Both the position numbers and the translations under genes were made by a program. Positions 16,298-17,464 of a stretch of 64,000 nucleotides of DNA are shown here, piece by piece. The notes beneath the pieces are model-generated. The model did no database searches. It saw nothing but the letters and a program-made list of their open reading frames with translations, and had not been told where the DNA came from. This stretch comes from Chloroflexota bacterium (GTDB lineage: Bacteria > Chloroflexota > Dormibacteria > Dormibacterales > Dormibacteraceae). The number at the start of each line of letters is the position of its first letter. The first letter of the stretch is position 1. The stretch is taken from positions 1 to 64,000 of the forward strand of contig VBEG01000020.1 of the NCBI GenBank assembly GCA_005882115.1, in the 5' to 3' direction.

Positions 16298-16744
16298 TCA
16301 GCCTTCGAGGGCACGCTTCACCGCTTCCTCTGGTGAGTGGACGAGGTCCAATCCCTTGACGTCCCACGTGCCGAGCGCGAAAACGGGCCGTCCCAACCTG
16401 CGGGCGAGCGCGATCTCGCTGAGCGTCCCCCAACCCTGGCCGATGGCGATGACGCTGTCGGCGGCGGTGACGATCACTGCGTTGCGCGCCTGACCCAATC
16501 CCGTCGCGATAGCGATCGTGACATGGGCGTTGACTTCGGCGCGGTCGGAGTCGGGCAGGATGCCGACGACGGTTCCGCCTTCGATTGCAGCTCCTTCGCT
16601 CGCGGCGCCCATCACTCCGCCGAAGCCGCCGTTGATCACGACCGCGCCCTCGCGCGCAAGAAGCCTGCCCACCTCGCGCGCCGCGTCGAGCTGCGAGGGC
16701 GTCGCTTCGGACGCTCCGCACACGGCAACGTATCGGCGAGGCAT
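16298..16744 (-). CDS. TIGR00725/SLOG (LOG-like, 'lysine decarboxylase'-like) family protein
   Basis: VAVCGASEATPSQ, VINGGFGGVMGAASEGA, GWGTLSEIALA. Confidence 0.8.
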   Translation of the reverse strand: MPRRYVAVCGASEATPSQLDAAREVGRLLAREGAVVINGGFGGVMGAASEGAAIEGGTVVGILPDSDRAEVNAHVTIAIATGLGQARNAVIVTAADSVIAIGQGWGTLSEIALARRLGRPVFALGTWDVKGLDLVHSPEEAVKRALEG

Positions 16745-16769
16745 CGAGGCAAGAGTTTATTCGGTAGAC

Positions 16770-16985
16770 TTTGCGGCGAAGTTCAACGCCCGTGGGGCAA
16801 GGAGGTGAGGCGAAGCTTGGATATACCGAGTCGTGGTGCCAGCCGCCTCGTTTGCCAGCTGGGAGCTCGGGAGGACGTAAGCCCCTAGGCTTCTGATCCC
16901 GCACCGACTCCTGGAGTCGGAGGCGGTAGCACCGCGAACGTAGACACGTGAGGGCCGGGCCGTCGCCCGGCCCTCAGCTTTTTCT
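16770..16985 (+). ncRNA. Putative structured small RNA of unassigned family ending in an intrinsic terminator
   Basis: Long-range helices CGTGGTGC(16832-16839)/GCACCGCG(16929-16936) and CCGCCTC(16843-16849)/GAGGCGG(16920-16926), local hairpin CCGACTC-CTG-GAGTCGG, then terminator. No convincing coding frame. Ends approximate. Confidence 0.5.
16950..16983 (+). terminator. Strong rho-independent terminator
   Basis: GAGGGCCGGGC-CGTC-GCCCGGCCCTC followed by AGCTTTTT. Confidence 0.85.
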
Positions 16986-16996
16986 CGCGACTAGCA

Positions 16997-17464
16997 TTGG
17001 CGATCGTGGTCAACGACTTCTCGCGGCAGCTGAACGAGATCCCGGAAGGATGGGTTCAGGCGATGGGCATGACCATCACGCACGCCACCAAAGACGAGGT
17101 GCGCGCCGAGCTCACCGTCGGGCGGCAGCACCTACAGGGTTACGGGATTGTCCACGGCGGCGTGCACTGCGGAATCATCGAGACGCTCTCCTCCATGGGC
17201 GCCTACCTCTTCGCGCGCGAGCGGGGGCAACATGTGGTCGGCCTGGAGAACAACACGAGCTTCATTCGGGCTGTGCGAGCCGGCGCTCGGTTGCGAGCGG
17301 TCGCGACGCCGATCACACGAGGCCGGCAAACCCAGGTCTGGCAAGCGCAGGTGATCGACGAAAGCGACCGCATCGTCGCGACCGGACGAGTGCGGCTGCT
17401 CTGCCTTGAGTCAGATCAGTCGCTGGCCGGGGAGCAGGTGAAGGGCGCCCTCAGCGACCGGTGA
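16997..17464 (+). CDS. PaaI-family hotdog thioesterase
   Basis: YGIVHGGVHCGIIETLSSMGAY, NTSFIRAVRAGARLRAVATPI; TTG start. Confidence 0.85.
   Translation: MAIVVNDFSRQLNEIPEGWVQAMGMTITHATKDEVRAELTVGRQHLQGYGIVHGGVHCGIIETLSSMGAYLFARERGQHVVGLENNTSFIRAVRAGARLRAVATPITRGRQTQVWQAQVIDESDRIVATGRVRLLCLESDQSLAGEQVKGALSDR

Follow-up and report, generated by a model that had tools for sequence, protein, structure and literature searches.

A new conserved RNA gene of the Dormibacteraceae with competing pairings and an embedded micro-ORF

SgrS/SgrT and RNAIII are examples of dual-function small RNAs: autonomous transcripts of a few hundred nucleotides which carry a terminator, a Shine–Dalgarno (SD) sequence and a short internal ORF embedded in RNA structure. 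The Dormibacteraceae RNA described here has the same layout, a likeness of organisation with no evident kinship in sequence or fold. Comparative RNA searches have yielded uORF and sORF candidates whose start and stop codons are conserved and which are accompanied by an SD sequence and nearby stems including a terminator (PMC11109978). The uORF candidates precede a consistent downstream gene, whereas the Dormibacteraceae RNA ends at its own terminator and has no constant neighbour, and is thus closer to an sORF, though a much more highly structured one. With 6S RNA (RF00013) it shares its length and a long imperfect hairpin; it differs in having no Rfam match and in the occurrence of separate 6S candidates in the family.

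The window (the whole stretch of DNA analysed, 64,000 nt) contains the RNA gene on the plus strand at 16777–16985, counted from the inferred transcription start to the end of the T-tract. It lies between a minus-strand gene of the SLOG/TIGR00725 type (16298–16744; Pfam LDcluster4) and a plus-strand gene for a PaaI-like thioesterase (4HBT domain). A −10 promoter element, TAGACT (16765–16770, plus strand), would place the start of transcription at about 16777. TAnnnT is present at the same spacing upstream of the SD sequence in nearly all relatives, in many of them in the extended form TGGTACACT; a scan of the locus for a −35/−10 consensus pair found none. The clear exception for the −10 element is locus L020, where the stretch with the promoter and the 5′ hairpin is absent, perhaps through a deletion or an assembly edit. 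In L020, the start of the neighbouring gene abuts the SD sequence and the contig title carries ‘e:285’.

At the other end of the gene, the scan located the intrinsic terminator that the preliminary description had placed there: a 12-bp stem followed by a T-tract (16949–16985, hairpin 16949–16976, plus strand). In nearly all relatives the RNA likewise ends in a GC-rich hairpin, mostly with a T-tract. As judged from sequence, the RNA therefore has a promoter and a terminator of its own, as expected for the dual-function sRNA class. The fold of the segment was more stable than that of shuffles (z = −3.0; 1 of 200 shuffles equally stable), and the minus-strand fold of the segment scored similarly to that of the plus strand. 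Three pairs are mostly G-U throughout the family (alignment columns 53/170, 54/169 and 80/147). As these would turn into A-C on the minus strand, they identify the plus strand as the functional one.

In a BLAST search of 61 genomes the RNA appeared as a conserved block in 36 of 37 genomes of its family, which are uncultured soil bacteria, and was essentially absent from the rest of the class. With a covariance model derived from 36 sequences, one strong match each was obtained in 41 of 42 family genomes, covering all 14 of 14 genera, with E-values of about 1e-22 or better. The contigs bearing the RNA include those of Candidatus Dormiibacter inghamiae and Candidatus Dormiibacter spiritus (Candidatus Dormibacteraceae at NCBI), which indicates that the family is the Dormibacteraceae. 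The sole family genome without the RNA, G010, is an assembly of 78% completeness; the neighbouring PaaI gene is absent as well, and the locus is therefore probably missing from the assembly. Two genomes (G036 and G029) have the RNA in two pieces at contig ends. As far as seen, the RNA is single-copy: further model matches in the source genome were weak (E > 1), and a weak additional match in G022 (E = 0.04) looks like chance. Outside the Dormibacteraceae the model gave no credible match, only matches with E > 0.005. Weak matches in four genomes of another family look by eye like coding sequence of coiled-coil type, and pattern matches outside the Dormibacterota were chance-like, lacking both the RNA context and the ORF.

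The preliminary description had proposed a structured RNA with competing helices outside the known families, and this holds: both helix sets are conserved, and the Rfam search which it suggested returned no family at either a gathering or a permissive threshold. Rfam 15 gave nothing at the RNA locus at the gathering threshold, and only chance matches at E ≤ 10. CcsR1 (RF02791) matched weakly via CACCUCC, but its score was 17.4 bits (cut-off 65.3) and the match lay on the minus strand. The earlier failure to match the segment to tmRNA, SRP RNA or RNase P RNA is borne out, each of these being found elsewhere in the source genome above cut-off. A T-box-like appearance of GGCGGUAGCACCGCG was also set aside; the second half of this sequence is a covarying P2 strand, Rfam has no T-box match here and no aminoacyl-tRNA synthetase gene follows. 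On this comparative evidence we regard it as nearly certain that a conserved, autonomous, structured RNA gene exists at the locus. With about 200 bases and no entry in existing catalogues, it is a new RNA gene.

The core of the RNA is a long rod of helices P2–P6. Both long-range helices of the preliminary description, CGUGGUGC/GCACCGCG within 16831–16839/16929–16937 and CCGCCUC/GAGGCGG at 16843–16849/16920–16926, are present and covary across 36 sequences. The former is P2 (plus strand; 5′ strand UCGUGGUGC, 3′ strand GCACCGCGA; 99.1% of cells paired), the latter P3. In P4, CUGGGAG (16859–16865) pairs with CUCCUGG (16908–16914), with three two-sided pairs and 97.2% of cells paired. A small 5′ hairpin, GCCC/GGGC (16787–16798), stands just before the SD sequence, with 95.1% of cells paired and one two-sided pair. 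The covariation check proposed earlier, made over the 36 sequences, bears the structure out: nine pairs are changed on both sides compared with 5.2 in shuffles (reached by 1 of 500), and 28 cells compared with 10.1 (reached by 0 of 500). Pairing within the rod amounts to 95% and falls to about 40–50% when the partner is slid. The P2 pair at columns 56/167 takes the states UA, AU and GU. On a tree made from flanking proteins only, its history requires four changes; these include two or more independent UA/AU swaps, one at a deep split and one in L018.

A second set of pairings is conserved as well, with 95.3% of cells paired. It consists of GGC(A)AA/UUUGCC and GAGGCGG/CCGCCUC on the 5′ side and CCGGCUC/GAGUCGG on the 3′ side. 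The 5′ strand of P3, CCGCCUC, is thereby a switch strand with two partners, the 3′ strand of P3 or GAGGCG at 16807–16812 (plus strand), which overlaps the 3′ end of the SD sequence; the preliminary description had overlooked this latter pairing. GGCAA (16796–16800) with UUGCC (16852–16856) forms an alternative helix and is almost invariant (99.5% of cells paired). The competing 3′ hairpin CCGACUC/GAGUCGG (16904–16920, plus strand) has 95.6% of cells paired and only one-sided changes. The two doubly changed pairs of the second set (columns 28/65, GC to AU, and 29/64, CG to UA) are both found in L036 and L037, two sister genomes that have CCAUCUC in place of CCGCCUC and matching changes in the 5′ as well as the 3′ partner. 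The 5′ alternative is thus compensated in one lineage alone, and many of its pairs are invariant. Since CCGCCUC can be bound by only one of its two partners at a time, the two pairing sets are mutually exclusive.

Predicted folding of prefixes from 15 relatives is consistent with an exchange of partners during transcription. In short transcripts the middle strand is paired to the 5′ side in nearly all cases; once the 3′ half is present, many relatives shift to the 3′ partner, some of them almost fully to the rod. At full length the predicted folds of the 15 relatives split between the rod and the 5′ pairing, and by prediction the two states would be near-equal in energy. We consider that the RNA quite probably switches between the two folds.

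The statement that the segment contains no convincing ORF appears doubtful, as a perfect SD sequence is followed by a conserved UUG micro-ORF whose stop is kept in all 41 copies. The SD sequence AAGGAGGTGA (16799–16808, plus strand) has 10 nt complementary to the family 16S tail. This tail, GGCTGGATCACCTCCTT, is present in five family genomes; the exact pattern was not found in the source assembly, and the tail sequence is therefore taken from the five relatives. The SD sequence AAGGAGGUGA is the sole match in the window, where 0.06 would be expected. Its columns are invariant in alignment A1, the rows of which were located by the pattern GGAGGTGAG; 1 of the 38 first loci, the contig-end fragment L038, failed this pattern. 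The micro-ORF (16817–16888, plus strand; (M)DIPSRGASRLVCQLGAREDVSP) opens with UUG at 16817–16819 and ends with UAG at 16886–16888. All complete copies have such a UUG-opened frame of 22–24 codons, with the stop 12–13 codons past a CTC codon. Searched against Pfam and NCBIfam, the peptide gave no family above cut-off. In most copies 11–12 nt separate GGAGG from UUG, which exceeds the usual distance, and UUG itself is a weak start codon. On balance, the sequence evidence favours translation of the micro-ORF.

The start and stop codons of this frame lie in strands which are complementary to each other. The competing helix GAAGCUUGG/CCUAGGCUUC of the preliminary description, formed by the start-codon strand (16812–16820) and the stop-codon strand CUAGGCUUC (16885–16893; both plus strand), is a conserved and partly covarying complementarity. 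In the duplex test the mean energy was −9.4 kcal/mol compared with −4.5 kcal/mol for letter-shuffled partners, and family-wide the own partners beat swapped ones (0 of 5000 swaps). Inside subclades the own partners had no advantage over swapped ones, so kinship may contribute to the result. The two strands are strongly complementary in inner-clade sequences; in the outer clade the complementarity shrinks to about UUGGA/UCUAG. From its geometry, the helix would fit the rod only as a pseudoknot.

These features together may be explained by a self-gated micro-mRNA or dual-function sRNA, autonomous and specific for the Dormibacteraceae, a reading that we put forward tentatively, at close to even chances. 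During transcription the 5′ half would fold first, with CCGCCUC and UUUGCC pairing to the flanks of the SD sequence and so masking it. Emergence of the 3′ half would let CCGCCUC move to the 3′ GAGGCGG and turn the RNA into the long rod P2–P6, in which the start codon might be pinned to the stop-codon region as a pseudoknot. Ribosomes could then load on the SD sequence only in a window of time, or under a condition, between both states, and translation of the 22–24 codons would open the rod. What the RNA delivers would be either its short peptide or the rod, exerting an effect in trans; no gene is positioned in cis consistently enough to be a target. More speculatively, and with a clearly lower probability, the RNA could represent a bistable RNA class of a new kind: one strand would either hide the ribosome binding site or close the rod, the start and stop codons of the micro-ORF would pair with each other, and translation would set the state of a trans-acting RNA.

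The foremost alternative, which we consider possible but rather unlikely, is a purely structural RNA acting in trans, whose reading frame would be an accident of structural constraint. The SD-like AAGGAGGUGA would then bind the 16S tail or serve the 5′ helix only, and start and stop would be kept by their mutual pairing. Indeed, the strands that hold the two triplets are complementary in nearly every relative, so the conservation of UUG and UAG may be structural. Wobble positions are invariant in the paired middle of the ORF (L-V-C), and amino-acid conservation in the ungapped ORF block was not significant against column-shuffled alignments (p = 0.08). The behaviour of the frame, however, speaks for coding. 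Frame 0 ends uniformly, in contrast to frames 1 and 2, whose ends are scattered; on the tree the stop codon underwent five stop-to-stop changes and was never lost, and frame-internal indels are multiples of three apart from one 7-nt insertion. In the clade with this insertion the in-frame stop is not the best-pairing copy, yet it varies only among TAG, TAA and TGA. The insertion, found in L005, L007, L009–L013, L016 and L020, lies in the loop between GAGG and CCUC arms; it creates CTTCTAG and CCTCTAG, two UAG-like motifs of which one is the in-frame stop and the other occupies the position that pairs with the start region.

A role in cis appears improbable. As a riboswitch, which the preliminary description had considered, or as a peptide attenuator, the RNA would be a leader governing read-through into the PaaI thioesterase gene, with its terminator as a possible expression platform. 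The PaaI gene does lie downstream of the RNA in most family genomes, but it has a −10-like hexamer of its own just before the start, TAGCAT (16992–16997, plus strand), with an inferred promoter role, and no SD sequence. Most inner-clade loci likewise have TA(G/C)GAT or TAGCAT 6–9 nt before the PaaI start without an SD sequence, which suggests a leaderless PaaI mRNA with its own promoter. The start codon is probably GTG at 17006, since a TTG start at 16997 would overlap the hexamer. Further, the PaaI gene is not directly next to the RNA in G021 and G034 and is on another contig in G025, so that no constant downstream gene shares the transcript as it would with a riboswitch or uORF leader. Tandem terminator-like hairpins (GGCCCGGC..GCCGGGCCCTCAGCATTTAG) intervene between RNA and PaaI in L010 and L011, and inspection of the conserved core revealed no stretch able to pair with the terminator arm. 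The hexamer of PaaI and the unlinked relatives indicate that the RNA probably stands alone and is not a leader. Both flanking genes look leaderless, each with a −10-like hexamer directly before its start codon (16744–16765 and 16992–17008).

A divergent 6S RNA sequestering RNA polymerase, the ‘6S-like’ option of the preliminary description, would agree in length, rod shape and presence of one copy per genome, but is highly improbable, as RF00013 had no match at E ≤ 10 at the RNA locus, the rod begins only about 50 nt from the 5′ end, which is not part of a closing stem, and 6S candidates scoring below the cut-off lie elsewhere in the genome in seven Dormibacteraceae and in 29 of 110 genomes of the class. 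In those seven family genomes the RNA is thus not the only 6S-like locus; the source genome itself has no 6S candidate at E ≤ 10. The 6S candidates, among them L141 (G032:C35:66530-66643) and L142, are spread over three families of the class, with scores of up to 46.3 bits (cut-off 46.4). It may be that a Dormibacteria subgroup of 6S RNA escapes the Rfam model.

The Dormibacterota are known almost exclusively via metagenomes. The gene brings one more RNA family to this little-studied phylum, and its putative switch would be accessible in vitro without culture of the host. That a nearly universal RNA of the whole family shows strong covariation and alternative folds and contains a micro-ORF suggests that it meets some need of the Dormibacteraceae.
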